From positions 1-64,000 of the forward strand of contig DYEA01000007.1 of assembly GCA_020725885.1 (NCBI GenBank): a DNA stretch of 64,000 nucleotides, given 5' to 3'. The notes under the pieces are model-generated. The model saw only the letters and a program-made list of their open reading frames with translations. It was not told where the DNA came from and searched no databases. Shown here piece by piece: positions 21,641-38,252 of the stretch. Position numbers and translations under genes: made by a program. Numbering within the stretch: position 1 is the first letter of the stretch; every line of letters starts with the position of its first letter. Origin of the DNA: Slackia sp. GTDB taxonomy: Bacteria; Actinomycetota; Coriobacteriia; Anaerosomatales; Anaerosomataceae.

Positions 21641-21694
21641 GATTTGACCACGCGGCTCGGGGAGAGCCGTCGCGTCGCTGGAGAAGGGGGATCC

Positions 21695-23890
21695 ATGGCT
21701 CGGAGCATCAGGTCACGCGTGCTTCCTCTCGTGCTCGCCGCGGCTCTTTTGTGCGTTCAGGCGGCTCCTGCGGCGATGGGGAACGAAAGCTGCCCAACGC
21801 GCCTGCCGGGTGGTGAGACGAAAGCCGCGTCGTCCGCAGCGCCGAAGGTCGGACGCGGCACCGGGACACGGACAGGATTGGCACCGGCCACGGCTGGGAT
21901 ACCTGGCGCGGTCGCCCTTCCACCGTCGCCGGTCGCCGGCTCGCTGGACTACGCGACGCATCGCCAGGACGTGTACGCGGTGCCGATCTGGAGCGAGAAG
22001 CGGTTGGCTGTGACCCTGACGGGGCAAGCCTCCCTCAATGCCGACGTGTACGTGTTCGGGCCGGGCACGACGGCCGTGGATCCGGGCGCTGCGCTGTGCT
22101 CCACGCTAGGGGACGAGTTTCCGAAGAGCGCAATCCTCGACGTACCGGCAGGCGCGACTGGCGTCTACTACGTCGTCGTGTATGCATGGTCGGGCAGCGG
22201 CACGTACGGGATGGAATGGCAGATGGTCGATCCGGTCGGCGAGCCGGACGACGACGTGCCCGGAACGCTGCTGACCGCTTCCACCTCGTTGCAGACCACG
22301 ACGGGCGCGCTCGGGTGGCCCGCTGACATCGACGACGTCTACGCGATCCCGGTGGCGGACGGTCAGCGCCTGATCGTCCAGCTCGACGGTCCTGATGGGG
22401 CTGACTATGACCTGCGGCTCTTCGCTCCTGGGACGCCGACTGTCATCGGCGCCACGGCGCGGCTCGGCTCGTCCGGCGCGACTGCGGACGAATCGCTGCT
22501 GTATGACGTGCTCGCCGGAGAAGGGGGCACGTGGTACGTGGACGTGCGCGCAGCGCGGGGCGCGGGCGGGTACACGCTGCGGTGGCGCGTCGTCCCCGTG
22601 CCGCCCGGGACGTGGGAGACGCTCGCGTCAGCGACGCCGCTTTCGGGCGCCGGCGGCACCGTGATGGGATCCCTCGACCGGCTAACGGATGCCAACGACG
22701 TGTTCGCGGTGGGCCTTGAAGCGGGCAAGCGCCTTTCCGTGACGCTCGACGGTGCAGAGGGCACAGACTTCGACCTGTACCTGCACAGCACGGACGGGTC
22801 GCAGATCGTCGCCTTCGACGAAGACGGCGTCTATCCCGACAGGCTGCAGGCCGATGTCGCGGTTGCAGGGACGTACTTCATCGAAGTGCGGGCGTTCACC
22901 GGATCTGGCGCGTACCTCCTCGACTGGAGCGTGACGGACACGCCTGCTTTCGTCGCCTGCATGCGGGATGCCGGACTCGACAGGTACCAGACCGCGCTCG
23001 CAGTGTCGTGGGCCGCCTTCCCGGGCAGTTCGGTCGCGACGGTGGTGCTCGCGAGCGGAGAGGTCTTCCCGGACGCACTGGCGGCGGCCGGACTTGCGGG
23101 CTGCTACGGCTCGCCTGTGCTGCTGACGCGGAAGTCCTCGCTGCCGGACGGGTTGATTCCGGAGATCAGGCGCCTGGGAGCGAAGAGCGTCGTCATCGTC
23201 GGCGGCACGGGCGCGGTCACCGACGACGTGAAGAAGACGCTGACACAGGCCGGGTTCGCCGTAGACCGCGTAGCGGGTCTGAATCGGTACGAAACTGCTC
23301 GCGCCGTGGCCGCGAGGATACGCAAGCTGACTGGCGGTGGATTCTCCGGCATCGCGTTCGTTGCGCGTGGCGACGACTTCGCGGACGCGCTCGCGGTCGG
23401 GCCGTGCGCCTACGCGCTCAAGGCGCCAGTGCTCCTGACGACACCGACCGCGCTCCACGCCGACGCGCAGGCTGCAATCCAAGAGAACCGGATCACCGAC
23501 GTCTACATCGCCGGTGGCACGGGCGCAGTCTCTGAGGCTGTGCGCCAGGCTATCCAACCGCTGGTTACTCGCCCGGTCGTGCGGCTCGCCGGTCAGGACC
23601 GGTTCGGGACTGCAGCCGCAGTGGCGGACTACGCGACGAAGATGTACTGGCTTGAAGAGGGCGGCGTTCTCGTGGCCACGGGAAGCCTGTTCCCTGACGC
23701 GTTGGGTGGCGGCGCCGCTGCCGGGAAGCGCGGATTCGCGGTCTTGCTGACCCGGACCACCGTGCTCCCCGATGCGACGAGCAAGTACCTCGCCGCACGG
23801 AAGGGGACGATCGTCCAAGCCCGCATCGCAGGCGGCACCGGAGCTGTGTCCGACCAGGTGAAGGCCGCGATCGAGAAGCTCCTGCGATAG
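21695..23890 (+). CDS. Secreted cell-wall-binding protein: PPC-like repeats plus three CWB2 repeats
   Basis: A 731-residue secreted protein with a signal peptide (about 1-27, ending near AAPAAMG). Three similar beta-rich repeats (about 70-420) are read as pre-peptidase C-terminal-like domains, each with a D-V-[YF]-A-[IV] strand and a D-[VF]-D-L-[RY] strand. Three cell wall binding type 2 repeats fill the C-terminal 300 residues. These show the recurring LA-x-G-[DE]-x-FPDAL, GGTGAV and RLAG-x-[DN]R[YF]-T features. CWB2 repeats bind anionic wall polymers in Gram-positives. No enzymatic domain is visible, so it may be a surface adhesin or S-layer-like protein. GGAGAAGGGGG precedes ATG 21695. Confidence 0.88.
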   Translation: MARSIRSRVLPLVLAAALLCVQAAPAAMGNESCPTRLPGGETKAASSAAPKVGRGTGTRTGLAPATAGIPGAVALPPSPVAGSLDYATHRQDVYAVPIWSEKRLAVTLTGQASLNADVYVFGPGTTAVDPGAALCSTLGDEFPKSAILDVPAGATGVYYVVVYAWSGSGTYGMEWQMVDPVGEPDDDVPGTLLTASTSLQTTTGALGWPADIDDVYAIPVADGQRLIVQLDGPDGADYDLRLFAPGTPTVIGATARLGSSGATADESLLYDVLAGEGGTWYVDVRAARGAGGYTLRWRVVPVPPGTWETLASATPLSGAGGTVMGSLDRLTDANDVFAVGLEAGKRLSVTLDGAEGTDFDLYLHSTDGSQIVAFDEDGVYPDRLQADVAVAGTYFIEVRAFTGSGAYLLDWSVTDTPAFVACMRDAGLDRYQTALAVSWAAFPGSSVATVVLASGEVFPDALAAAGLAGCYGSPVLLTRKSSLPDGLIPEIRRLGAKSVVIVGGTGAVTDDVKKTLTQAGFAVDRVAGLNRYETARAVAARIRKLTGGGFSGIAFVARGDDFADALAVGPCAYALKAPVLLTTPTALHADAQAAIQENRITDVYIAGGTGAVSEAVRQAIQPLVTRPVVRLAGQDRFGTAAAVADYATKMYWLEEGGVLVATGSLFPDALGGGAAAGKRGFAVLLTRTTVLPDATSKYLAARKGTIVQARIAGGTGAVSDQVKAAIEKLLR

Positions 23891-24740: not shown

Positions 24741-25103
24741 GTGGGAGGCAGGTCGGCGGTGCTGTTCGCAACGGGTCTCGTCGCAGGCCCCGCGCTGTTC
24801 CTCCTGATTTTGCTGACGTTGCAGCGGCTGCTCGCTCCACGACGGCCCGATCCAGTCAAAGAGAGCGCGTTCGAGTGCGGCATCCCGCAGGCGGACGTCC
24901 CGTGGAAACCGTTCAACGTGCGGTTCGCCGCCGTTGCCGCCCTGTTCGTCATCTTCGACGTCGAGGGCGTGCTGCTGTTCGCCGTGGCGCCTGCAGTGAA
25001 GGGCTCGCTTGCCGGCGTCCTCGAGGTCGGCGCGTTCGTGTCGATGCTCGCGATCGGCCTGCTGTACGCGTGGCGGAAGGGGCTGTTGTCGTGGCTGCGA
25101 TAG
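24741..25103 (+). CDS. nuoA: NADH-quinone oxidoreductase subunit A
   Basis: A 120-residue membrane subunit with three helices. The block FECGIPQADVPWKPFNVRF with its conserved Cys and the Asp-Glu pair in VIFDVEGVLLFA are NuoA signatures; the acidic residues lie in the second helix. GTG start with GAGG 5 bases upstream. First gene of a tightly packed eleven-gene operon running to 35779. Confidence 0.96.
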   Translation: MGGRSAVLFATGLVAGPALFLLILLTLQRLLAPRRPDPVKESAFECGIPQADVPWKPFNVRFAAVAALFVIFDVEGVLLFAVAPAVKGSLAGVLEVGAFVSMLAIGLLYAWRKGLLSWLR

Positions 25104-25714
25104 ACGAGCTCGCAGAGTTCCTCGAACGGACCCCCGGCGGCGGCATCCTGCTCACGACCGTCGATGCCGTCATGAACTGGGCGCGCGGCAAGTCGCTGTG
25201 GACCTTCCCGATGGGTACGGCGTGCTGCGCCATGGAGTTCATCGCTGCGTCGTTCTCGCGGTTCGACTTCGACCGGCATGGCACCATCCCGCGTCCCGAC
25301 CCGCGTCACTGCGACGTGATGGTGGTGGCCGGCACCGTTACCCGCAAGATGATGCCCGCGGTGAAGCGCATCTACGACCAGATGCCTGAACCGAAGTGGG
25401 TCGTCGCGATGGGCAACTGCGCCGTGTCGGGCGGCATCTTCTACTACGACACCTACTCCGTCGTGCGGGGCGTCGACGAGTTCCTGCCGGTGGACGTCTA
25501 CATCGCCGGCTGCCCGCCGCGGCCCGAGGCATTGCAAGACGCGATCTTGCAGCTTCGCAAGAAGATCGCGACCGAGTCGATCTCGAAGCGCCGCACGCGT
25601 CCGCTGGTGAGCGACCTCGCTCTTCCGACAGACCCGCGCAAAGGCGACCTGCTGTCCGCTGCAGACGCTGACGAAGAGGATGAGGCTCCCGCCACGAGGA
25701 GCGTGAGCGCATGA
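25091..25714 (+). CDS. nuoB: NADH-quinone oxidoreductase subunit B (cluster N2)
   Basis: A 207-residue peripheral subunit that carries cluster N2, which reduces quinone. The four ligands are present: the tandem Cys45-Cys46 (GTACCAMEF), Cys110 (GNCAVSGG) and Cys141 (AGCPPRPE). A C-terminal tail of about 45 residues after the conserved QLRKKI is Asp/Glu-rich and longer than usual. GTG 25091 has GGAAGGGG upstream and overlaps nuoA by 13 bases. Confidence 0.95.
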
Positions 25715-26172
25715 GGATCGAAGAGCTCCGCGAGCGCGTGTGCGCGATGTACCCGGACCTGTGCCCGCTGTTCTCCATCGAGTTCGGGGACGGCGCGATC
25801 AGCGTCCCGTTGGAGCGGGTCCACTCCGCTGCGGCGGACCTCAAGGAGATGGGCTTCGACAGGCTGGGCATGGTCACGGCGGTCGACCGCGGCGAGGAGT
25901 TCGAGATCGTCTATCGCCTGCAGTCCCGCGACCTCCGTGCAGGGATGTTCCTCAAGGCCCTCGTGCCGCGGTCCGATCCCCGCGTACCGAGCATGTGCGA
26001 CCTGTGGCCCGCCGCGAATTGGCAGGAGCGCGAGGTCTACGACCTGTTCGGCATCGTCTTCGAGGGCCACCCGGACCTGCGCAGGATCCTCCTTCCCGAC
26101 GATTGGGAAGGCCATCCGCTTCGCAAGGACTACGTGGATGAGCGCATCATCCCGAGGCCGGACTACATCTAG
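25711..26172 (+). CDS. nuoC: NADH-quinone oxidoreductase subunit C
   Basis: A 153-residue 30-kDa-type subunit of the connecting arm, with no cofactor. The family block [31 protein letters not shown] and the final GHPLRKDY are clear. It is a separate gene, not fused to nuoD. ATGA overlap with nuoB. Confidence 0.95.
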
Positions 26173-26180
26173 GGGCGTCG

Positions 26181-27278
26181 ATGGTCACTGAAGAGCTGAC
26201 TCTCAACATCGGTCCGTCGCACCCGTCGACGCACGGGGTCTGCCGGCTTCTGGTGCGGCTCGACGGCGAGATCGTCACCCACGTGGAGCCGATCATCGGG
26301 CACCTGCACCGCGGCATCGAGAAGATGGCCGAGAACCGGACGTACCTGCAGGTGGTCCCGCTCACCGACCGCCTCGACTACGTGGGATCGATGTACGCGA
26401 ACTGGGCGTACTGCCGCGCCGTTGAGCGTCTCGCCGGCATCCGCGTGCCGGAGCGCGCCGAGTACATCCGCGTCATCGTGTGCGAACTGCAGCGCATCGC
26501 GAGCCACATGATGGGCATCGGCTCAAGCGCGGCCGACACCGGCGCCACGTCAGCGTTCCTGTACGCGTTCGCGCAGCGGGACCTCGTCATCGACCTGTTC
26601 GAAGAACTGTGCGGCGCCCGGCTCACCTACAACTACGTGCGTCCGGGCGGAGTCTCGTTCGACCTGCCCGACGGCTGGGTGGAGAGGTGCCGGGCGTTCA
26701 CGGCGCAGCACCCGAAGGCCATGCTCGAGATCGACGGCTTCTTCTTCGGTAACGCCATCGCCCGCGCGAGGCTCAAAGGCGTCGGAGTCCTGGATCCGGA
26801 CGCGGCCGTCGCGTGGGGCGTGTCGGGGCCGTCTGCGCGCGGCTCAGGCGTCGATTGGGACCTCCGTCGGGACGACCCGTACTCGGTCTACCCGCGCTTC
26901 GACTTCGACGTGCCGATCGGGTCGAACGGCGACGCCTTCGACCGGGCCCGGGTCCGGCTGTGGGAGTGCATCGAGAGCTGCCGCATCATCGACCAGGCGC
27001 TCGACCAGCTCGAGCCGGGCCCCATCATGGCGGACGGGCTTCCGCGCCTGTTGGCGCCTCGCCCGGGGGACGCGTACGACCACATCGAGAGCGCTCGCGG
27101 GTCGCTCGGCGTGTACCTCGTCAGCGACGGGTCGCCGCGGCCGTACCGCATGAAGGTGCGCTCCCCGGCGTTCTGCAACCTCGCCGTCCTGCCGCTCATC
27201 GCCGTGGGGCACACGCTGTCGGACCTCTTGGTGATCCTCGGCTCGCTCGACCCGGTGTTCGGGGAGGTGGACCGGTGA
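26181..27278 (+). CDS. nuoD: NADH-quinone oxidoreductase subunit D
   Basis: A 365-residue 49-kDa-type subunit forming the quinone pocket with NuoB. The N-terminal GPSHPSTHGV holds the quinone-facing His; HLHRGIEK, DYVGSMYANWAYC and the C-terminal SLDPVFGEVDR are family blocks. The nickel-ligand cysteines of related hydrogenases are absent, as expected for a complex I subunit. It begins 8 bases after nuoC and ends in a GTGA overlap with nuoH. Confidence 0.96.
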   Translation: MVTEELTLNIGPSHPSTHGVCRLLVRLDGEIVTHVEPIIGHLHRGIEKMAENRTYLQVVPLTDRLDYVGSMYANWAYCRAVERLAGIRVPERAEYIRVIVCELQRIASHMMGIGSSAADTGATSAFLYAFAQRDLVIDLFEELCGARLTYNYVRPGGVSFDLPDGWVERCRAFTAQHPKAMLEIDGFFFGNAIARARLKGVGVLDPDAAVAWGVSGPSARGSGVDWDLRRDDPYSVYPRFDFDVPIGSNGDAFDRARVRLWECIESCRIIDQALDQLEPGPIMADGLPRLLAPRPGDAYDHIESARGSLGVYLVSDGSPRPYRMKVRSPAFCNLAVLPLIAVGHTLSDLLVILGSLDPVFGEVDR

Positions 27279-28225
27279 GCTCGTTGCTGCTCGGGATCCT
27301 CTGGGGCGTCGCCGGCGTGCTCGTCATCGCGGGCGGCGCCGTGATCGGCGTGTGGTGGGAGCGCAAAGTCGCCGGCCACATCCAGCTGCGGTACGGTCCG
27401 CAGCAGATCGGCCCGGCCGGTTCGCTGCAGATGCTTGCCGACGTGCCGAAACTGCTGTTCAAAGAGGACATCGTCCCGTCCGGAGCCGACCGGCCGCTGT
27501 TCAAGTGGGCGCCGCTCATGGCGTTCGCGCCGGTGGCCGCAGCCATGGCGGTGATCCCGTTCGCTGCGGGCTGGGCCCCGTTCGACACGAGCGTGGGTGT
27601 GCTGTTCTTCCTGGCGGTGCCCTCGCTGGAGGTGGTCGCGATACTCGTGGCCGCGTGGGCGCAGCGCAACTCGTACGCAGCCATCGGAGGCCTTCGCGCC
27701 GCGTCGCAGATGATCGCCTACGAGGTGCCACGCACGCTTGCGGTGGCGCCGCTCGTGCTGCTCGCTGGCTCTCTGCGGCCGACCGAGGTCGTCGCGGCGT
27801 GGCGCTGGTGGTGGCTGCCCCTGCTCGCCATCGCCTTCGTCGTGTACCTGATCGCGTCGATCGCGGAGATGAACCGCGGCCCGTTCGACCTGCCGGAAGC
27901 CGAATCCGAGCTCGTCGCAGGGTACTTCGCCGACTACTCAGGCATGCGCTGGGCGATCTTCATGATGGCCGAGTACGGCGCCGTCATCACCGCGAGCCTG
28001 TTCGCGGCTGCGACGTTCCTGGGCGCCGGCTGGCCCTTCAGCGGCGCTCTGGGGGTGGTCGCGCTCGTCGTCAAGACGTCCGTGCTCGTCACGATCGTGA
28101 TGTGGACGAAGTGGACGCTGCCGCGAGTCCGCCAAGACCAGCTCCTCCGGTTCTGCTGGGTCGTGCTGGTGCCGGCCACGCTCGTGCAATTGGCGATCGT
28201 CGGGGTGGTGCTGCCGTGGATGTGA
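27275..28225 (+). CDS. nuoH: NADH-quinone oxidoreductase subunit H
   Basis: A 316-residue membrane subunit with about eight helices that links the quinone chamber to the proton channels. WWERKVAGHIQLRYGPQQIGP, DVPKLLFKED and AEMNRGPFDLPEAESELVAGY are the conserved loops with the acidic funnel residues. GTG start in a GTGA overlap with nuoD, GGGGAGGTGG upstream. In ordinary operons nuoE, nuoF and nuoG would lie between nuoD and this gene; here there is nothing. Confidence 0.96.
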   Translation: MSSLLLGILWGVAGVLVIAGGAVIGVWWERKVAGHIQLRYGPQQIGPAGSLQMLADVPKLLFKEDIVPSGADRPLFKWAPLMAFAPVAAAMAVIPFAAGWAPFDTSVGVLFFLAVPSLEVVAILVAAWAQRNSYAAIGGLRAASQMIAYEVPRTLAVAPLVLLAGSLRPTEVVAAWRWWWLPLLAIAFVVYLIASIAEMNRGPFDLPEAESELVAGYFADYSGMRWAIFMMAEYGAVITASLFAAATFLGAGWPFSGALGVVALVVKTSVLVTIVMWTKWTLPRVRQDQLLRFCWVVLVPATLVQLAIVGVVLPWM

Positions 28226-30255
28226 AGCGAGACAGACCGGTCGTTCCGGCGAGCGTCTCCGACGGGCCGACGGGAGACGGCCTCGTCGCTGGAGCGCGCT
28301 CGATCGCCAAGGGCTTCGCGTACACGGCTCGCGCGGGCGTGAGCAAACCGCTCACCGTGCGGTATCCGAAGGAGAAGCTCACCGTCAGCCCGCGGTGGCG
28401 CGGCCCGCTCGCGCTTCGCGGCGTGCTCGGGCGCGACGAGATCCCGCTGCTCCGTGCGCCGTCGTACGCCTACAACGAGACGATCGACGGCCTGTACCGC
28501 GCCGACCGGTTGCCGCCGTGCGTGGGCAGCTGCCCCGCGAACGTGGACGCGCGCGGTCAGGCGTACCTGATCGCCGACGACCGGGTGGTCGAGGCCTACG
28601 AGCTCGTCCGCGACCGCAACATCCTGCCCGGCGTGCTCGGGCGCATCTGCCACCACCCGTGCGAGTCGGCGTGCAAGCGGAACTTCTTCGACGAGCCGAT
28701 CGCCATCCGCCCGCTTCACCGCTTCGCGTTCGAGGAGTACCGCAAGGTGCGGCACGAGCGCATCTCGCCGTTCCCGCGGACGCAGGGCAAGAGCGTCTGC
28801 ATCGTGGGATCGGGGCCCTCGGGCCTCGCGGCGGCGTACGACCTGCTCAAGCTGGGCTACCGCGTCGTGATGTACGAGCGCGAACGGAAGCCAGGCGGCG
28901 CGCTCAACACCGGCGTCCCTGCGTACCGGCTGCCCCGCGAGGTGCTGTACGAGGAGATCGACGACATCGTCGGGCTCGGCCTGGAGCTCAACACCGGCGT
29001 CGAGGTGGGGAAGGACGTCACGCTTCCGTCGCTCATGCGCGAGCATGACGCGGTGCTGCTCGCGGTCGGCCTTCAGCAGAGCCGGATCCTGCCGATCCCG
29101 GGCACCGACGCCGAGGGCGTCGTCGGCGCGCTCGAGTTCCTGTGGTCTGCGAACTTCAAGCACGAAGCCGGCGTGCGCGGCAAGCGGGTCCTCGTGATCG
29201 GCGGCGGCAACGTCGCCGTGGACGTGGCGCGGTGCGCGCTGCGAGTGGGAGCGTCTGAGGTCCGCCTCGCGTGCCTCGAGTCCGAATCCGAGATGCCGTG
29301 CCACCCGTGGGAGATCGCGGAGGCGCTCGACGAAGGCGTCATCGCGATGTGCTCGCTCGGCCCGGAGGAGGTCCTGACGAAGCACGACACGGTCGTGGGG
29401 ATGCGCATGCGCTCGTGCCTGTCGGTCTTCGACGAGATGGGCCGGTTCGCTCCGAAGTTCGGCGACGAGACCACAGACGTGCCGACCGACGTCGTGGTGT
29501 TCGCGATCGGCCAGGCGCCCAAGATCGACACGATCGTGGCCGGGACGGAGCTCCTGGTGAGCGGGCGAGGCCAGTTGGTCGTCGACGGTACGCTGTTCAC
29601 CACGTCGGTTCCTGGCGTGTTCGCGTGCGGCGAGATCGTCACGGGTCCCGGGAGCGCGATCGGGTCGATCGCTACCGGACACGAGGCGGCCGTCTCGATC
29701 CACCGGTACCTGCAAGGGCTGCCGCTCGACGGCGACCGCGTCGCGCGCCCCGTGCCCGTCTACCAGAAGCACGCCCCGGCCGACACGCGCGGCATCGAGT
29801 CGAACCGCAGGCGCGCCGTCATGCCGATGGCCGATCCGGAGGAGCGGGCGAAGGACTTCCGCCAGGTCGAGCTCGGCCTCACGAGGCAGGAAGCGACCGC
29901 TGAGGCCATGCGGTGCTTGCGGTGCGAGTCGGAGGTGTGCGTCGGGTGCACCTTCTGCGCGAGGACCTGCCCGGACTACGCCATCAAAGTGGAGCGCGTC
30001 GACGAAGCTGGCGCCCGGTGCCTCACCCGCTACGACCTCGACCTGACGAAGTGCTGCTTCTGCGGCCTGTGCGCGGAGCAGTGCCCCACGAAGGCGCTCC
30101 ACCACACGGGACAGTACGAGCTGTCGTTCTGGCACAGGGACCTCATGGTGTTCGACAAGGGCGAGATGCTCCGTCCTCCGACGGGCACGCGCGCCACGGG
30201 GCGTGACGGCATCTCGCCGCCAGGATGCCCCGTTCCGCGAAGGGAGGACGGATGA
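28216..30255 (+). CDS. NuoI with an inserted GltD/NfnB-like FAD-NAD(P) oxidoreductase module
   Basis: A 679-residue fusion in the nuoI position. Residues 30-62 match the N-terminal NuoI segment that lies against the membrane arm (KPLTVRYPKEK at 44-54, then PRWRG). The next 500 residues are a GltD-like module: Cys102, Cys106, Cys145, Cys149 and Cys153 (Fer4_20-type iron-sulfur site), the FAD-binding GSGPSG at 198-203, the NAD(P)-binding GGGN at 329-332, and the closing RCLRC (Cys567, Cys570). NuoI then resumes with Cys575-578-581-585 and Cys613-616-619-623, two [4Fe-4S] motifs, and a NuoI-like tail to KGEMLRPP. The NADPH-type RR after the second nucleotide fold is not seen (ACLESESEMP), hinting at NADH. 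Likely role: NAD(P)H to FAD to clusters to NuoB, replacing NuoEFG. GTG 28216 or 28222. Confidence 0.88.
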   Translation: MDVKRDRPVVPASVSDGPTGDGLVAGARSIAKGFAYTARAGVSKPLTVRYPKEKLTVSPRWRGPLALRGVLGRDEIPLLRAPSYAYNETIDGLYRADRLPPCVGSCPANVDARGQAYLIADDRVVEAYELVRDRNILPGVLGRICHHPCESACKRNFFDEPIAIRPLHRFAFEEYRKVRHERISPFPRTQGKSVCIVGSGPSGLAAAYDLLKLGYRVVMYERERKPGGALNTGVPAYRLPREVLYEEIDDIVGLGLELNTGVEVGKDVTLPSLMREHDAVLLAVGLQQSRILPIPGTDAEGVVGALEFLWSANFKHEAGVRGKRVLVIGGGNVAVDVARCALRVGASEVRLACLESESEMPCHPWEIAEALDEGVIAMCSLGPEEVLTKHDTVVGMRMRSCLSVFDEMGRFAPKFGDETTDVPTDVVVFAIGQAPKIDTIVAGTELLVSGRGQLVVDGTLFTTSVPGVFACGEIVTGPGSAIGSIATGHEAAVSIHRYLQGLPLDGDRVARPVPVYQKHAPADTRGIESNRRRAVMPMADPEERAKDFRQVELGLTRQEATAEAMRCLRCESEVCVGCTFCARTCPDYAIKVERVDEAGARCLTRYDLDLTKCCFCGLCAEQCPTKALHHTGQYELSFWHRDLMVFDKGEMLRPPTGTRATGRDGISPPGCPVPRREDG

Positions 30256-30746
30256 GCGCGCAGACGGCGGGGCTTGGCGTCGCCATCGCGCTGGTCGCCC
30301 TCGGCGCCGTGGGCGCGGTGCTCCTGCGTGAGGTGATGCGGGTCCTGATCTCGCTCGGCGTGTTCCTGTTCGGCGTGGCCGCGGTGTACGCATACCTCGG
30401 CTATCCGTTCTTGGCCGTCGCGCAGGTCTTCGTGTACGTGGGCGGCGTGCTGGTCCTGATGGTCTTCGCCGTCATGACTGCTCGTCGCGACCGCAGCGAA
30501 CGCCCGGCGTTCGTCTCGAGGCACGATGTCGGATCGGCTGCGATCGCGGCCGGGACCGGCGCCATGCTCTTCCTCGGGCTTCGCCCGCTGTTCCAAGACG
30601 CAGGGTTCGCCAGGTCCTCTGCCGTCTCGGACCTCGCGCAGGAGCTCCTCGGACCGCGCCTTCTTGCGTTCGAGGCGGGCGGCGTCCTTCTGCTGGCCGC
30701 GCTGATCGCAGTGGCGGCAGCGTTGAGAGGCGGTGAGGACCGGTGA
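30252..30746 (+). CDS. nuoJ: NADH-quinone oxidoreductase subunit J
   Basis: A 164-residue membrane subunit with five helices. The block AVYAYLGYPFLAVAQVFVYVGGVLVLMVFAVM, including the pi-bulge helix 3, is characteristic. ATGA overlap with the fusion gene, AGGGAGG upstream. Confidence 0.95.
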   Translation: MSAQTAGLGVAIALVALGAVGAVLLREVMRVLISLGVFLFGVAAVYAYLGYPFLAVAQVFVYVGGVLVLMVFAVMTARRDRSERPAFVSRHDVGSAAIAAGTGAMLFLGLRPLFQDAGFARSSAVSDLAQELLGPRLLAFEAGGVLLLAALIAVAAALRGGEDR

Positions 30747-31039
30747 TCGCGCTCGGGCTGTCGTGCGCCGTCTTTGCGCTCGGGCTGTACGGCGTGCTGA
30801 GCAGGCGGGACCTCATCGGAGTCCTGGTGTCGGTCGAGTTGATGCTCGGCGCCGGGGGCATCCTTCTCGCCGCGGCGGGCGCGGCCTCTGGCGCGACGTC
30901 AGGCGCGGTGCAGAGCATCGCCCTGATGGTGCTCCTTCTGGCCGCGGCCGAGGCCGCAGTGGGGTTGAGCCTGCTGCTCGCGCTGCACCGGCGGAGCGGG
31001 CGCACGCGCGTGGACGAGTTGAGCGAGGTGAGCGGCTGA
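30743..31039 (+). CDS. nuoK: NADH-quinone oxidoreductase subunit K
   Basis: A 98-residue membrane subunit with three helices. GVLSRRDLIGVLVSVELMLGAG carries the conserved Glu of helix 2, and AAAEAAVGLSLLLAL the Glu of helix 3, both needed for proton transfer in known complexes. GTGA overlap with nuoJ; its stop shares a base with the nuoL start. Confidence 0.95.
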   Translation: MIALGLSCAVFALGLYGVLSRRDLIGVLVSVELMLGAGGILLAAAGAASGATSGAVQSIALMVLLLAAAEAAVGLSLLLALHRRSGRTRVDELSEVSG

Positions 31040-32844
31040 TGACCGTCGTGCTCGCGTCCGTCGTGCTGCCCGTCGTGCTCGCCGTCGGCATCGCGCTCGC
31101 CGGGAACCGGGGGATACGCGTCGCGCAGGTCCTCGCCGTCGCTGGGCCAGGCGGCGCGTTGGCAGCCGGGATGTCGCTGCTCGCCAGCGAACGCGCGTCC
31201 AGCGCTGTCGCGTGGAGATCTGCGTGGCTTTCGCAGGGCGGCGCTTCCTTGCCGCTGGGGTTCGCTGGCGACGCGCTCGCCGCTGTGATGCTCGTGATCG
31301 TCGGCGTCGTGGCCGCGTGCGTCGTCGTGTTCTCGTGGGGCTACATGGCCCACGAGTCCGGCCGGCCGCGGTACTTCGCGGTGCTCATGCTGTTCGTGGC
31401 TGCGATGTCGGCGCTCGTGCTGGCGGACAACCTCGTGACGCTCTTCATCGGATGGGAGCTCGTGGGCGCGTGCTCCTACTTGCTGATCGGATTCTGGTAT
31501 CGCAAGCCTGAGGCCACCCGTGCTGCAATCAAGGCGTTCATGACCACACGCGTCGGCGACGTCGCCATGCTGCTCGGGATGGCGGTCCTGTGGCGGGCTG
31601 CGCAGACGCTGTCTTTGGACGGTATCGTCGCAGCCCTGCCGAAGATGCCGCAGGCCACCGTCACGGCCGCTGCGCTCTTGCTGTTCGTGGGCGCCGCGGG
31701 CAAGTCCGCGCAGTTCCCGCTGCACATCTGGCTGCCTGACGCGATGGAAGGACCGACGCCCGTATCCGCGTTGATCCACGCGGCGACGATGGTCGCATCG
31801 GGCGTCTTCCTCGTGGCGCGCGCGTGGCCCGTGTTCGAGGCGAGCGGCGTGGCGCGCGCGACGATGCTCGCGGTAGGCGTGCTGACGGCGCTGTACGCAG
31901 CCCTCGTCGCCCTGGCGCAGACGGACATCAAGAAGATGCTCGCGTACTCCACCATCAGCCAGCTGGGGTTCATGTTCGCCGCCCTCGGAGCCGGAGCCTG
32001 GGGCGCCGCGATGTTCCACCTCGCGACGCATGCCGCGTTCAAGGCCCTGCTGTTCCTTGCGGCGGGAAGCGTGATCCACGGTTCAGGCACGCAGGACATG
32101 GACGAGATGGGCGGGCTGGCACGGGCCATGCCCGTCACTGCCGCTGCGTGGACGGCCGGCGCGCTCGCGCTTTCGGGCTGGTGGCCGTTCGCGGGCTTCT
32201 TCTCCAAAGACGCGGTGATCGCGGCGGTGGCGGCTGCGTCTCCAGGCGCCTCGTGGATCCTCGTCTTCACCAGCGCCGTCACCGCGCTGTACGTCTGGAG
32301 CGCGACCTTCCGGGTGTTCCTGGGCGCTTCGCGAAGCGACCACGCAGCGCACGAATCAGGCCGATCGATGCTCGCGCCCTTGGCTGTGCTCGCGCTCCTG
32401 TCAGCTGTGGCCGGATGGGCCGGCCCGGCCTTCACCGAGCGCCTCGGGGCCCCGGAGGAGCACGCTGCGCTGGCCACGATCGCGGCCGCCGTCGCAGCGG
32501 TCGCAGCCGGTACGGCACTCGCCTACGCGCTCTACCGGAGAGCTCCCGAACGCGGCGCCTCGCTTCCAGGCGGGCTTCAGTCCGCGGCGAGGTCCGGTTT
32601 CGGCGTGGATGCCGCCGTCCACGCGCTCGTCGTGCGCCCAGCCGTCGCCTTCGCGCAGTGGGTTGCCCGGGTCGCGGACGAGAAGGTGGTGGACCGAGCC
32701 GTGGAAGGCTCTGCGGCGCTCACTGGGCGCGTCGGAGGGATGCTTGCACGCCTGCAGACGGGGGAGGCCGACGTGTACGCGTCGCTGGTCGCAGTCGGAT
32801 TCGTCCTGCTGACTGCGGTGGTCGTCTGGATGGGAGGGCGGTAG
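31039..32844 (+). CDS. nuoL: NADH-quinone oxidoreductase subunit L
   Basis: A 601-residue antiporter-like subunit with about 16 helices and the long C-terminal lateral arm. FIGWELVGACSYLLIGFWYRK has the conserved Glu; GAAGKSAQFPLHIWLPDAMEGPTPVSALIHAATMV holds the Lys and the broken helix; WPFAGFFSKD follows. The C-terminal 120 residues suit the amphipathic lateral helix and its anchor. ATG overlaps the nuoK stop. Confidence 0.95.
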   Translation: MTVVLASVVLPVVLAVGIALAGNRGIRVAQVLAVAGPGGALAAGMSLLASERASSAVAWRSAWLSQGGASLPLGFAGDALAAVMLVIVGVVAACVVVFSWGYMAHESGRPRYFAVLMLFVAAMSALVLADNLVTLFIGWELVGACSYLLIGFWYRKPEATRAAIKAFMTTRVGDVAMLLGMAVLWRAAQTLSLDGIVAALPKMPQATVTAAALLLFVGAAGKSAQFPLHIWLPDAMEGPTPVSALIHAATMVASGVFLVARAWPVFEASGVARATMLAVGVLTALYAALVALAQTDIKKMLAYSTISQLGFMFAALGAGAWGAAMFHLATHAAFKALLFLAAGSVIHGSGTQDMDEMGGLARAMPVTAAAWTAGALALSGWWPFAGFFSKDAVIAAVAAASPGASWILVFTSAVTALYVWSATFRVFLGASRSDHAAHESGRSMLAPLAVLALLSAVAGWAGPAFTERLGAPEEHAALATIAAAVAAVAAGTALAYALYRRAPERGASLPGGLQSAARSGFGVDAAVHALVVRPAVAFAQWVARVADEKVVDRAVEGSAALTGRVGGMLARLQTGEADVYASLVAVGFVLLTAVVVWMGGR

Positions 32845-32846
32845 CG

Positions 32847-34292
32847 GTGCATCTGCTGTGGCTCATCGTCCTTCCGGTCGCAGGCGCGTTGGCCGTGCTT
32901 CTCGCAGGCGAGCGCCTGGCTCCGTCGCGGACGCTGTCGCTTGTGGTCGCGTGCGCGGAGGCGGTCCTCGCTGGGTCCGCGATCGCGCGGATGCTGGCCG
33001 CGTCCTCGCCCGCTCTGTCGTGGGCTCCGGGCGGCGTGCTCGGTGCGGTCCCGCTGTCCTTGGGCTTGGACGGCTTGTCAGCGCCGCTGGTGGGCCTCAC
33101 GGCCCTCCTGACTCCCGTGGCGGTCTCTGCGTCGTGGCAGGTGGCTGATGGGCCACGGGCGCACCACGCGCTGCTGCTGTCTCTGGAGGCAGCCGTGATG
33201 GCAGTGTTCTTGGCGGCGGACCTCGTGTTCTTCTACGTCGCGTGGGAAGCGGTGCTCATCCCGATGTACTTCCTGATCGGCCTCTGGGGCCACGAAGGGC
33301 GCCGTCACGCAGCCGCGAAGTTCTTCCTCTTCACGTTCCTGGGGTCGGCGCTCATGCTGGTGGGCGTCTTGCTGCTCATCGGTCACACAGGCGCCACGGT
33401 GCTCAGCGACGTACCGAGAGTGCTGCCGCTCGAGCTTCAGCGTGCGGTCTTCTGGCTCTTGGCAGCCGGCATGCTCGTCAAGCTTCCGGCAGTCCCGCTG
33501 CACACGTGGTTGCCCGAAGCCCACGTGGAGGCCCCGACGGCCGGGTCGATGCTGCTGGCAGGCGTGCTTCTCAAGATGGGCGGATACGGCCTCATGCGGA
33601 TAGCGGCTCCGCTGACCCCCGAGGCCTTCCGGGAAGCCGCTCCTGCGTTGTTCGCGCTCGGAGCCGTTGGAACGGTGTACGGAGCGCTTGCGGCGCTCGC
33701 ACAACGGGACGTGAAGCGCCTCGTGGCGTACTCCTCCGTCGCCCACATGGGATTCGTGCTGGTCGCCCTGTCCGCACGGACCCCCGCTGGCTACGCTGCA
33801 GCGATGCTCGTGATGGTGAGCCACGGCCTCGTCGCCGCGCTCGCGTTCTTCCTCGTCGGCGCGTTGTACGAGCGCACGCACACGCGCAGCCTCGAGGACC
33901 TCGCGGGGCTCGCGGGCCCGATACCGCGGTGGTCCGTCCTGTTCGTCTTCACGGCGCTCGCCAGCCTCGGATTGCCTGCGCTTTCGGGGTTCCCGGGAGA
34001 GTTCCTCTCGCTGCTCGAGTCGTTCCGGACGTTCGGGTGGTGGGCCGCCGTCGCAGGCGTCGGGGTCCTGCTCGCAGCCACGTACAACCTCCATGCGGTG
34101 CGCGCCGCGGTCTACGGAGACCCGGTAGAACGCTGGGCGTCTCTACCTGACGTCTCGGCCCGGGAGGTCGTCACGGCCGCGCCGCTCGTCGCCGGCATCG
34201 TCGTGCTTGGCGTGTGGCCGGGGCTCATCACTGCGCTGAGCGACCCCGCCGTCTCGGCCCTGATCGCCCTCGTGCAGGGAGGTGGCAAGTGA
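32847..34292 (+). CDS. nuoM: NADH-quinone oxidoreductase subunit M
   Basis: A 481-residue antiporter-like subunit. FFYVAWEAVLIPMYFLIG has the conserved Glu, and AAGMLVKLPAVPLHTWLPEAHVEAPTAGSMLLAG the Lys and broken helix. KRLVAYSSVAHMGF is the second conserved block. GTG 32847 has GGGAGG 9 bases upstream. Confidence 0.95.
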   Translation: MHLLWLIVLPVAGALAVLLAGERLAPSRTLSLVVACAEAVLAGSAIARMLAASSPALSWAPGGVLGAVPLSLGLDGLSAPLVGLTALLTPVAVSASWQVADGPRAHHALLLSLEAAVMAVFLAADLVFFYVAWEAVLIPMYFLIGLWGHEGRRHAAAKFFLFTFLGSALMLVGVLLLIGHTGATVLSDVPRVLPLELQRAVFWLLAAGMLVKLPAVPLHTWLPEAHVEAPTAGSMLLAGVLLKMGGYGLMRIAAPLTPEAFREAAPALFALGAVGTVYGALAALAQRDVKRLVAYSSVAHMGFVLVALSARTPAGYAAAMLVMVSHGLVAALAFFLVGALYERTHTRSLEDLAGLAGPIPRWSVLFVFTALASLGLPALSGFPGEFLSLLESFRTFGWWAAVAGVGVLLAATYNLHAVRAAVYGDPVERWASLPDVSAREVVTAAPLVAGIVVLGVWPGLITALSDPAVSALIALVQGGGK

Positions 34293-35779
34293 GCGTGGCT
34301 GCCGGGCTGGTTCACGACCTCGTGTCCGGCATGGCCGGGATCTTGTGGCTGCCCGCCGCGCTGGTTCTCGCGGCTGCCGGGGCGGCTCTCGTGCTGGACG
34401 CGTTCGAACGGCCGTCCGCAGCGGTCTCAGCGGTCGGGCTTGCGGCGTGCATCGCCGCAGCCATCTGCGTCGCTGCCGCGCTTCAGGCGCCGCTCCAGCA
34501 GGCGGTCCCCGGCGTGTACGGAGGAGGCGGGCTGGCTGGAGCGGGGGCGGCCATGTACGCGCTGGCCGCGCTCGCCGCAGCCACGGGGATGCGCACCCTC
34601 CCGAATTCCGTGCGTGGGGCCGCAGCCGGTCTCGTCGCCTTGTCTGCCGTGGCCTGCCAAGCGCTCGCGGGCGCGGTGGACGCCGTGGTGATGATCCTGG
34701 CGCTGGAGACGCTGGCCATCGCAAGCTACGGGCTCGTGTCCGCGAGCGGGACGCGCTCCTCGGGCGAGGTTGCCATGCGGTACTTCGTCCAAGGCTCGGT
34801 CGCGGCCGGCTTGCTGGTGTTCGGCCTGGCCGGCGTCGTGGCGGTCGGAGGCGGCGAGACGTCGTACGAGGCCCTGACCGCGAGCGTCGCGTCGTCGCCT
34901 GCCGCAGCGGCAGGCGTTCTCGGGATGCTGTTCGTGGCCGCGTTGGCCTTCAAGGCCGGTGCCGTGCCGTTCCACTCATGGGTGCCTGACGCGTACGAGA
35001 CCGTGGAGCCTGGCGTGGCCGTGTTCGTGGCCGGCGCACCGAAGATCGCTGCCGTGACCGCCGTGTGGGTGCTGTTCGTGCGGACGGTATGGGCCTCCGA
35101 AACGTTCGCCGACCTCCGGACCGCCGTCGCGATCGCTGCCGCCGCGTCCGTCGTCGTCGGCAACCTGGCGGCGCTCAAGCAAGCGCGCCTCGGGCGGCTG
35201 CTCGGCTACTCGGCCATCGCCCAGGCTGGCTACGCGCTGACTGGCGTCGCTGCGGGAGCGGTCGGCACCGGGCTGCTCGTCGCGAGCTACGCGCTCGCCG
35301 CCGCGGTCGCCTTCGGCGTGGCGAGCGTGCTGAAGGAGGAGACGGGGAGCGATCCGCGCATCGAGGATCTGGCCGGGCTTGCATCGCGACGCCCGGCCCT
35401 CTCTGCGGCCCTGGCTGCCGCGATGCTGTCGTTGACCGGGATGCCGCTCACCGTCGGGTTCGTCGGGAAGCTCTGGGTCTTCTACGGGGCGATCGGCGCC
35501 GGCCTCACCTGGCTCGCCGTGATCGGCGCCCTCGGCTCGGTGGTGTCCTTCGGCTACTACGGACGCGTGATCCAGGCCGCGTATTTCGCGGAGCCGCAGG
35601 CTGCGCTCGCCGACACCGCTGACGAGGCGCCCGAAGCAGCAGACGAGGAGCCGCTGCAGCCAAACGTCTCGCGCCCGAGAGCGTGGCCGTTCGTCGCCGC
35701 AGCGGCCGCCCTCGTGATCGCCGGCGTCGCGCCGCTCGTGTTTGGGTTCGAGCAGATCGTCCGGTTCTTCATGGTATAG
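34289..35779 (+). CDS. nuoN: NADH-quinone oxidoreductase subunit N
   Basis: A 496-residue antiporter-like subunit and last gene of the operon. LALETLAIASYGLV carries the Glu, FKAGAVPFHSWVPDAYE the Lys and broken helix, and GRLLGYSAIAQAGYAL the second block. An Asp/Glu/Pro-rich loop precedes the last helix. GTGA overlap with nuoM. A terminator follows at 35874. Confidence 0.95.
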   Translation: MSVAAGLVHDLVSGMAGILWLPAALVLAAAGAALVLDAFERPSAAVSAVGLAACIAAAICVAAALQAPLQQAVPGVYGGGGLAGAGAAMYALAALAAATGMRTLPNSVRGAAAGLVALSAVACQALAGAVDAVVMILALETLAIASYGLVSASGTRSSGEVAMRYFVQGSVAAGLLVFGLAGVVAVGGGETSYEALTASVASSPAAAAGVLGMLFVAALAFKAGAVPFHSWVPDAYETVEPGVAVFVAGAPKIAAVTAVWVLFVRTVWASETFADLRTAVAIAAAASVVVGNLAALKQARLGRLLGYSAIAQAGYALTGVAAGAVGTGLLVASYALAAAVAFGVASVLKEETGSDPRIEDLAGLASRRPALSAALAAAMLSLTGMPLTVGFVGKLWVFYGAIGAGLTWLAVIGALGSVVSFGYYGRVIQAAYFAEPQAALADTADEAPEAADEEPLQPNVSRPRAWPFVAAAAALVIAGVAPLVFGFEQIVRFFMV

Positions 35780-36575: not shown

Positions 36576-36587
36576 GAGGTGGACGAC

Positions 36588-38252
36588 GTGTCCTACACGC
36601 GCGAGCGCTTGGGCGAGATCCTCGTCCGCGCAGGCAAGATCACCGCGGAGCAGCTCGCCGCTGCCCTCGCCGTGCAAGCGGTCGAGGGCGGCAAGATCGG
36701 CCAGGTCCTGGTGCGCCAACTCGTTCTGGACGAGGACGAGATCGCCCAGACGCTAGCCGAGCAGAAGGGCCTCGACTGCGTGCGTCTGACCGCGTTCCCT
36801 ATCGACCGGCGCGCCGTGTCGGAGATCCCAGAGCGCCTCGCGCGGAAGCGGCTCGTCATCCCGATCGCGTACGAGGGCGAGTCCCTCGTCCTGGCCATGG
36901 CCGACCCGCTGGACGTCGAAGCGATCGACGACGTCCGGCTCACCACCGGCCGCAACGTCGTCCCAGTCGTGGCCACCCCGACCCAGATCCAATACGCGAT
37001 CGAGAAGTTCCTCGCTTCTGCAGACGCCCTGCAAGAAGTCGTCGAGACCGTGCGCGAGACCCACGAAGAGGAGGTCGCCGCTCCGGACGAGGACGCGCCG
37101 GTCGTCCGGCTGGTCAACCAGATCATCCGCGAGGCGGTCATGGACCAGGCAAGCGACATCCACATCGAGCCCGGCGACCACTCCGTCCGCGTGCGCTATC
37201 GCGTCGACGGCGTCTTGCACGAGCGTATGCAGCTGCCGCTGTCCGTCCGGCCTGGCCTGACGTCGCGGATCAAGATCATGGCCGACCTGGACATCTCCGA
37301 GCGGCGTCGTCCACAGGACGGACGGATCGCCGTCTCGATCAACAACCGCCCCTTGGACATCCGCGTAGCCACGTTGCCGACGCCCGCAGGAGAAAGCATC
37401 GTCTTGCGGCTGCTCAACCATGACGTCGAGATGCACACGCTGGGCGACCTCGGTATGGACCAGGACAACCTCGCGACCATGCAGCGGTTCCTTGCGCGTC
37501 CGTGGGGCGCGGTGTTGGTATCGGGACCGACTGGGTCGGGCAAGACGACGACGCTGTACGCGGGACTGAACCGCATCAACGAGCCGACCCGGAAGATCAT
37601 CACCATCGAGGACCCCATCGAGTACCGCATCCCGGGCATCACGCAGATGGCGGTGAATCCGGCAATCGGACTGACCTTCGCAGCCCTGCTGCGGACCGTC
37701 CTCCGCTCCGACCCGGACGTGGTGATGGTGGGCGAGATCCGCGATCCCGAGACCGCGGAGATCGCCATCCGTGCGGCCCTCACGGGCCACCTCGTGCTGT
37801 CGTCGATCCACACGAACGACGCGCCGTCGGCGCTCACGCGCCTCGTGGACATGGGCGTCGAGCCGTACATCACTTCCTCGGCACTGGTCGGGGTCGTCGC
37901 GCAGCGGCTCGCGCGCAAACTGTGCCGCAAGTGCCGCAAGCGCTACCGCGTCGCTCCCGAGTCCGCCCTGGCGGCGGGGTTCACGGAAGAGGAGGTCGAA
38001 GCGGGTCTTCGGCTCTTCCGGGCCGTCGGCTGCGACGAATGCTCGGGCACGGGGTACCGCGGACGCATCGGCCTGTTCGAGATCATGGAGGTCACCGAGG
38101 AGATCCAGCGCCTCTTCCTGCGCGAAGCCCCCGCTGACCAGCTGCGGGACGCGGCTATCGAAGCGGGCATGCGCACGCTCAGGCGGGACGCGCTTGAGAA
38201 GGTCAAGGCCGGGATCACCTCGCTCGACGAAGTCGCGCGCGTCGTCGTGTGA
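36588..38252 (+). CDS. Type IV pilus assembly / type II secretion ATPase (PilB/GspE)
   Basis: A 554-residue hexameric ATPase powering pilus extension or secretion. It has an N-terminal MshEN domain (about 1-145; such domains can bind c-di-GMP), Walker A GPTGSGKT at 313-320, the Asp box and EDPIEYRI region, DPDVVMVGEIRDPETAEIA (Walker B), and the zinc-binding Cys446-x2-Cys449 and Cys482-x2-Cys485. GTG 36588 is favoured because GAGGTGG lies 5 bases upstream; GTG 36579 is the alternative. No pilC, pilT, pilM-Q or pilin gene is in the window, so the ATPase is separated from its partners. Confidence 0.92.
   Translation: MSYTRERLGEILVRAGKITAEQLAAALAVQAVEGGKIGQVLVRQLVLDEDEIAQTLAEQKGLDCVRLTAFPIDRRAVSEIPERLARKRLVIPIAYEGESLVLAMADPLDVEAIDDVRLTTGRNVVPVVATPTQIQYAIEKFLASADALQEVVETVRETHEEEVAAPDEDAPVVRLVNQIIREAVMDQASDIHIEPGDHSVRVRYRVDGVLHERMQLPLSVRPGLTSRIKIMADLDISERRRPQDGRIAVSINNRPLDIRVATLPTPAGESIVLRLLNHDVEMHTLGDLGMDQDNLATMQRFLARPWGAVLVSGPTGSGKTTTLYAGLNRINEPTRKIITIEDPIEYRIPGITQMAVNPAIGLTFAALLRTVLRSDPDVVMVGEIRDPETAEIAIRAALTGHLVLSSIHTNDAPSALTRLVDMGVEPYITSSALVGVVAQRLARKLCRKCRKRYRVAPESALAAGFTEEEVEAGLRLFRAVGCDECSGTGYRGRIGLFEIMEVTEEIQRLFLREAPADQLRDAAIEAGMRTLRRDALEKVKAGITSLDEVARVVV

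Follow-up and report, generated by a model that had tools for sequence, protein, structure and literature searches.

Complex I is usually described either with a fixed NADH module (NuoE, NuoF and NuoG) or with none, and other 11-subunit complexes I (Fpo with F420, NDH-1 with ferredoxin) take their input via a separate protein or subunit. GltD modules next to complex I-type Fe-S domains are known from other settings. Such a module, with a cluster arm on its C-terminal side, is carried by the StnC subunit of the Sporomusa Stn transhydrogenase (8oh5, PMC10482914) and by NfnABC chain A (9bov, 9n5u). Both are NuoG-like subunits of soluble, bifurcating enzymes, with NADPH as the nucleotide in the case of StnC; electrons of StnC run along FAD-C7-C6-C5 into the NuoG-like domain (PMC10482914). 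DsrL and other PRK12771-type proteins have the order Fer4_20, FAD, NAD(P), linker and C-terminal dicluster ferredoxin, the partners of DsrL being DsrAB. The 'putative oxidoreductase' proteins of PRK13984/NF010590 combine a NuoI-like domain and GltD end to end, with the whole NuoI-like domain preceding an unpermuted GltD. No description of a NuoI-GltD-NuoI protein was found in the open-access literature searched, which is no proof that none exists. The order Anaerosomatales was described in PMC9686372, where the gene examined here is annotated as NuoI, NuoEFG are noted as missing and donors such as ferredoxin are suggested; the sections of that paper that bear on complex I do not mention a fusion.

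The whole stretch of DNA analysed here (the window; 64,000 nucleotides from an Anaerosomatales genome) contains on its + strand an 11-gene operon, nuoA-B-C-D-H-I*-J-K-L-M-N (24741-35779), identified from the list of open reading frames, HMMs and synteny. Its sole nuoI, designated nuoI* (28216-30255), lies between nuoH and nuoJ and is a single open reading frame of 679 residues whose GTG start is within the 3' end of nuoH and overlaps its stop. The complex thus encoded has the same membrane and Q modules as the Fpo/F420 and NDH-1/ferredoxin complexes and likewise no NuoE, NuoF or NuoG, but only here is there an insertion in NuoI. Upstream, on the same strand, are nuoA (24741-25103), nuoC (25711-26172) and nuoH (27275-28225), all recognized by NCBIfam models; nuoB (25091-25714, start approximate; Pfam and synteny), which retains the N2 cysteines (ACC, NC, GC); and nuoD (26181-27278; NCBIfam and synteny), in which HPSTH and DRLDY are present at what we take to be the places of the quinone-site histidine and tyrosine, residues whose roles are general knowledge. 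Downstream are nuoJ (30225-30746, with an alternative ATG start at 30252; Pfam); nuoK (30743-31039), taken from the list of open reading frames with homologues assigned by synteny; and nuoL (31039-32844) and nuoM (32847-34292), both with approximate starts, and nuoN (34289-35779), from the same list and synteny. Outside the operon, the window at 21644-23890 and 36579-38252 resembles, by eye, a cell-wall-binding-repeat surface protein and a type IV pilus assembly ATPase.

NuoI* is not a standard NuoI, yet it is built from one: a NuoI N-terminus (residues ~20-70) is followed by a GltD/NfnB-type Fe-S/FAD/NAD(P) module (~85-570) and then by the NuoI 2x[4Fe-4S] domain and tail (571-655). It shares with ordinary NuoI (TIGR01971) the N-terminal segment, the two [4Fe-4S] motifs, the tail and the place between nuoH and nuoJ. 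An HMM made from the ordinary NuoI of relatives (31 proteins) matches NuoI* twice, with HMM positions 5-42 at residues 29-66 (iE 2.8e-6) and positions 50-124 at residues 572-645 (iE 3.4e-20), so that almost no NuoI sequence is missing and the difference consists of ~500 extra residues between HMM positions 42 and 50. TIGR01971 itself is matched in two stretches at 87.8 bits, and because of the insert its curated cut-off of 113 is not met. All 28 fusion proteins tested yield two separate domains with the ordinary-NuoI HMM, although three of them have only a weak N-terminal match (iE 0.005-0.03). The N-terminal segment (28273-28425) comprises a helix and KPLTVRYPKEK..PRWRG..LRG; when residues 16-75 (60 residues) alone are compared with the PDB, complex I subunit I chains occupy all of the best ranks (best E 1.5e-4), with the alignment ending at 'RGEHALRR', and residues 565-653 match the same chains, resuming where the first match stops (9f5x_G: 85-124, then 122-211). 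The C-terminal part (29926-30180; NCBIfam, NuoI HMM; Fer4_7 of Pfam at residues 575-627) has two CxxCxxCxxxCP motifs for clusters N6a and N6b, with cysteines 575, 578, 581, 585, 613, 616, 619 and 623. The insertion therefore lies inside NuoI and is not a mere extension, although folding of the two parts as one domain is inferred.

A DsrL-like protein fused end to end behind a NuoI N-terminus was considered and is disfavoured. NuoI* shares the domain order of DsrL and PRK12771-type proteins, but DsrL lacks the NuoI N-terminus and the C-terminal ferredoxin of NuoI* is NuoI-like: ferredoxin and tail score as NuoI (iE 3e-20), whereas the C-terminal ferredoxins of two paralogues from Wood-Ljungdahl clusters do not (best iE 3e-7 with the ordinary-NuoI HMM). 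A NuoI N-terminus together with a NuoI C-terminus is the simpler reading, which we favour. The PRK12771 score of NuoI* (447 bits) is under the curated cut-off of 516.

The inserted module has its Fer4_20, FAD and NAD(P) motifs in GltD/NfnB-type order. Its Fer4_20-type part (residues 100-177; 28513-28746; Pfam) precedes an FAD domain with an embedded NAD(P) domain (residues 193-488; 28792-29679; Pyr_redox_2 of Pfam, structural match), with the FAD motif GSGPSG at residues 198-203 and the NAD(P) motif GGGN at 329-332. In NfnB the distal cluster is ligated by C39, C42, C47 and C100 and the proximal cluster by C51, C90, C96 and E117 (PMC7596348); alignment places C102, C106, C145, C149, C153 and H168 of NuoI* at NfnB C47, C51, C90, C96, C100 and E117, with no counterpart of C39 and C42 in the N-terminal (Fer4_20) part of the module. 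Residues 530-575, however, match the N-terminal arm of PydA (4ylf residues 4-47, E 3.9e-6) and of NfnL, which is the arm that carries C39/C42, and they also match the C-terminal arm of StnC and NfnABC. The arm (residues 533-570, ...EAMRCLRC; 29812-29925) is therefore circularly permuted, as in StnC. C567 and C570 of this arm probably complete the distal cluster, and C570 sits five residues before the first NuoI cluster cysteine (C575). The predicted ligands are thus C106, C145, C149 and H168 for the proximal cluster and C102, C153, C567 and C570 for the distal cluster; this assignment is made from sequence alone, and the clusters have not been measured. It is accompanied by strong conservation, all 15 cysteines being invariant in 57 sequences with the single exception of C567S in L080 (G601), the only fusion with serine at this predicted distal ligand. 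Position 168 is histidine within Anaerosomatales and histidine or lysine in other lineages of the 57 sequences; in StnC, lysine can ligate the proximal cluster (PMC10482914).

Of the whole protein, AlphaFold2 modelled only the flavoprotein core in two runs, of which that with 27 alignment rows (A3) was worse than that with 32 (A2); the NuoI halves mostly had pLDDT <50, and viral-contig scans for relatives gave no further sequences for a deeper alignment. The core matches GltD, NfnB and StnC at Z 29-35. Model residues 96-571 align with StnC 98-565 (Z 34.6) and with chain A of Caldicellulosiruptor NfnABC (Z 35.4), but with NfnB and GltD only up to ~501-511, which is consistent with the permuted arm. 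Like StnC and NfnABC chain A, with which it aligns at Z 33-35 over residues 96-571, NuoI* connects its module to a complex I-type Fe-S domain that comes next in the chain; unlike them, it has the module inside NuoI of a membrane complex without NuoE, NuoF or NuoG.

Most of what the original prediction claimed on this architecture has held. Its reading frame and coordinates, its residue numbers for five Fer4_20-type cysteines and for the FAD and NAD(P) folds, and its eight ferredoxin cysteines after the insert are correct; its N-terminal NuoI segment, including PRWRG (residues 59-63), is borne out by the PDB matches and the NuoI HMM, its GltD/NfnB-type module by sequence, and its insertion within NuoI rather than end-to-end fusion by sequence and synteny. 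The structure prediction that it proposed as a check has not settled whether the two NuoI parts form one domain, and that reading rests on sequence. It did not anticipate the C567/C570 arm shared with StnC, the replacement of the NADP-binding motif discussed next, or the finding that the GltD modules are not one clade.

In NfnB, YRR binds the phosphate of NADP, and related enzymes without YRR prefer NAD(H) (PMC7596348). NuoI* has CLE at this position (GGGN...CLE, residues 327-355; 29194-29280; assigned by conservation and the YRR rule), and none of the 43 Anaerosomatales sequences departs from L354 or E355, whereas the 14 fusions outside the order divide into six with LE and eight with YRR. 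With E355 fixed in the order and YRR in other lineages, the nucleotide site seems to be under selection. The motif predicts, in the absence of biochemistry, that NADH is more probably used than NADPH in Anaerosomatales, including by the window protein, and that the YRR group uses NADPH.

The fusion is conserved throughout the order. All 61 relatives match at some level, and ~50 carry the long form, some truncated at contig ends; every one of the 30 Anaerosomatales loci retrieved has the genes in the sequence A B C D H I* J K L M N, up to the contig limits, two or three apparent swaps of neighbours being an effect of overlapping stop-to-stop frames. Within the class (a sample of 298 genomes) full-length matches are listed only for Anaerosomatales, and the phylum sample adds more full-length forms in other actinobacterial families: 14 of these diverged forms (34-50% identity), each from a different genome, were retrieved, and all 14 lie in nuo operons. 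The carriers are anaerobic actinobacteria, most of which have not been cultured. The survey outside Actinomycetota consisted of one scan of genome contigs, and no copy with the NuoI N-terminus was among the five matches listed for plasmids.

The window genome (1.83 Mb, 100% complete) has no Pfam match to NuoE (PF01257), NuoF (PF10589) or NuoG (PF10588) and so does not meet the definition of a canonical 14-subunit complex I by these three subunits. An intact nuoI alongside nuoEFG, which would have refuted the original prediction, is not found: nuoEFG are absent, and although an intact nuoI is present, it belongs to a second complete, ordinary 11-subunit nuo operon elsewhere (G000:C8, L075:2941-12592, - strand; NuoI of 156 residues). 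The genome therefore encodes an ordinary 11-subunit complex I in addition to the one with a built-in module. NuoF-like proteins are encoded elsewhere in the genomes of relatives from other families, so NuoF is not absent as a rule. The window genome encodes MqnE, of the futalosine route to menaquinone (515.9 bits, cut-off 434.6), but there is no MqnE match in four fusion carriers of the same family (G006, G009, G012, G015), which possibly have another quinone route or another acceptor.

We consider it likely (probability roughly 0.75, with no biochemistry at hand) that NuoI* serves an 11-gene complex I as its subunit I and contributes a built-in NAD(H)-linked input module. NAD(H), more likely than NADP(H), would bind the embedded nucleotide domain and exchange hydride with FAD; single electrons would pass from FAD to the proximal and then the distal [4Fe-4S] cluster, on to N6a and N6b of NuoI, to N2 in NuoB and to quinone at NuoD, and proton pumping by NuoA, NuoH and NuoJ-N would be coupled to this transfer. 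The data establish the architecture, the operon, its conservation, the lack of NuoE, NuoF and NuoG, and the homology of every module and ligand, whereas the clusters, cofactor choice, electron path (for which cluster distances were not modelled), quinone as partner, proton pumping and NADH:quinone activity are all inferred. The direction is undecided and may be NADH oxidation or quinol-driven reduction of NAD+ during growth fed by H2 or formate. This reading is supported by the N2 and quinone-site residues kept in NuoB and NuoD and by the presence of MqnE. It is weakened because quinones were undetected in two cultured Anaerosomatales and ferredoxin was proposed as donor (PMC9686372), because MqnE is unmatched in the four relatives, and because a form without the NAD(P) domain (L155) implies that NAD(P)H use is not needed everywhere. 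As for the original prediction, its replacement of NuoE, NuoF and NuoG by one protein is supported by sequence, synteny and the lack of the three Pfam domains, and its flow of NAD(P)H electrons into NuoI and NuoB remains an inference. In this respect a single inserted flavoprotein domain seems to do the work of three subunits, with FAD instead of FMN and a shorter chain of clusters, which makes it a small natural test case of what complex I needs for coupling NADH oxidation to pumping, and which alters how energy metabolism is annotated in a subsurface order for whose complex I donors such as ferredoxin had been suggested.

Among the alternatives, the closest shares the anatomy of the main reading and differs in direction: the enzyme would act mainly in reverse as a quinol:NAD+ oxidoreductase, with quinol from hydrogenase or formate dehydrogenase and the proton gradient reducing NAD+ for CO2 fixation. 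In its favour, growth of the cultured members is supported by H2 or formate together with Fe(III) or sulfur compounds, their [NiFe] hydrogenase belongs to group 1i and comes with cytochrome b (PMC9686372), and the related DsrL-1A is faster at NAD+ reduction (PMC7596348); against it, no sequence feature fixes the direction and the genome also has an ordinary second complex I. On balance it is less likely than not. It is unlikely that ferredoxin feeds NuoI, as proposed for 11-subunit complexes, with the GltD part serving as a ferredoxin:NAD(P)+ branch or persisting as a remnant. The authors of PMC9686372 proposed ferredoxin since NuoEFG are missing, and one relative (L155) has lost the NAD(P) domain, but the 57 sequences keep their nucleotide and FAD motifs and almost every ligand, and the separate ordinary complex I could serve ferredoxin.

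It is more doubtful still that the inserted FAD carries out flavin-based bifurcation or confurcation and thereby links NAD(P)H, ferredoxin and quinone. NfnB-type FAD sites do bifurcate, and R238, whose YRLP context suggests equivalence to R201 of NfnB and R239 of StnC, is invariant in the 57 sequences; however, neither an NfnA partner nor a second flavin is found in the protein or operon, and in StnC, which is the closest relative with a solved structure, FAD is the non-bifurcating flavin (PMC10482914). An artefact, in which separate nuoI and gltD genes were joined in assembly or read through, can be practically dismissed: no evidence for it was found, NuoI halves flank the insert, and the same continuous frame recurs in ~50 genomes of the order and in 14 genomes of other families. 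The sequencing join that would have overturned the original prediction is thereby excluded, the arrangement recurring in 30 of 30 loci.

The inserted modules do not share a single origin. In a tree of GltD cores the fusions fall at no fewer than three places (>=3) among Wood-Ljungdahl-cluster, StnC-like and GltD/Nfn proteins; monophyly of the fusions as a whole is rejected (p-AU 1.5e-54), and that of the LE-type fusions is not (p 0.33). When NuoD is used for the tree, operons whose NuoI is ordinary (L144, L146) branch among operons that carry the fusion. Together, the trees indicate that the module was gained, lost or replaced repeatedly at one NuoI site, which was thus filled more than once, and they do not resolve gain, loss and replacement from one another; the case illustrates how input modules are swapped during evolution. 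A bolder reading, which we hold to be as likely right as wrong, is that NuoI is a recurrent docking site, at one junction of which GltD modules of varied ancestry and of NADH and NADPH types were inserted several times in Actinomycetota, and that this includes the split arrangement of family f44.

In that family (L147, L148, L151), the gene between nuoH and nuoJ (L148:6774-8585, +) encodes a NuoI(N)-NuoF fusion of ~603 residues that includes the NuoI N-terminus with its first motif, and the next gene (L148:8598-11135, +) encodes a NuoG(2Fe-2S)-GltD-Fe-S-NuoI(C) fusion of 783-845 residues; the pair is apparently a Stn-like two-flavin module joined to complex I, which is an inference. The form without an NAD(P)-binding domain (L155:5611-7122, +) is a NuoI-GltD-NuoI protein of 503 residues that keeps the FAD motif and all Fe-S motifs. 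On a Bacteroidales contig, a gene adjoining a NuoD-like gene (L067:363-2174, +) encodes an end-to-end NuoI-like and GltD protein of PRK13984 type, in which GltD is unpermuted and has YRR; it scores 653 bits with PRK13984 and NuoI* scores 350, neither reaching the cut-off of 946. Finally, a paralogous GltD that is likewise permuted (~40-45% identity) is found in a Wood-Ljungdahl cluster at L073 and L074 (G027:C15, G016:C76), where neighbouring genes resemble, by eye, metF, metV and acs/CODH.
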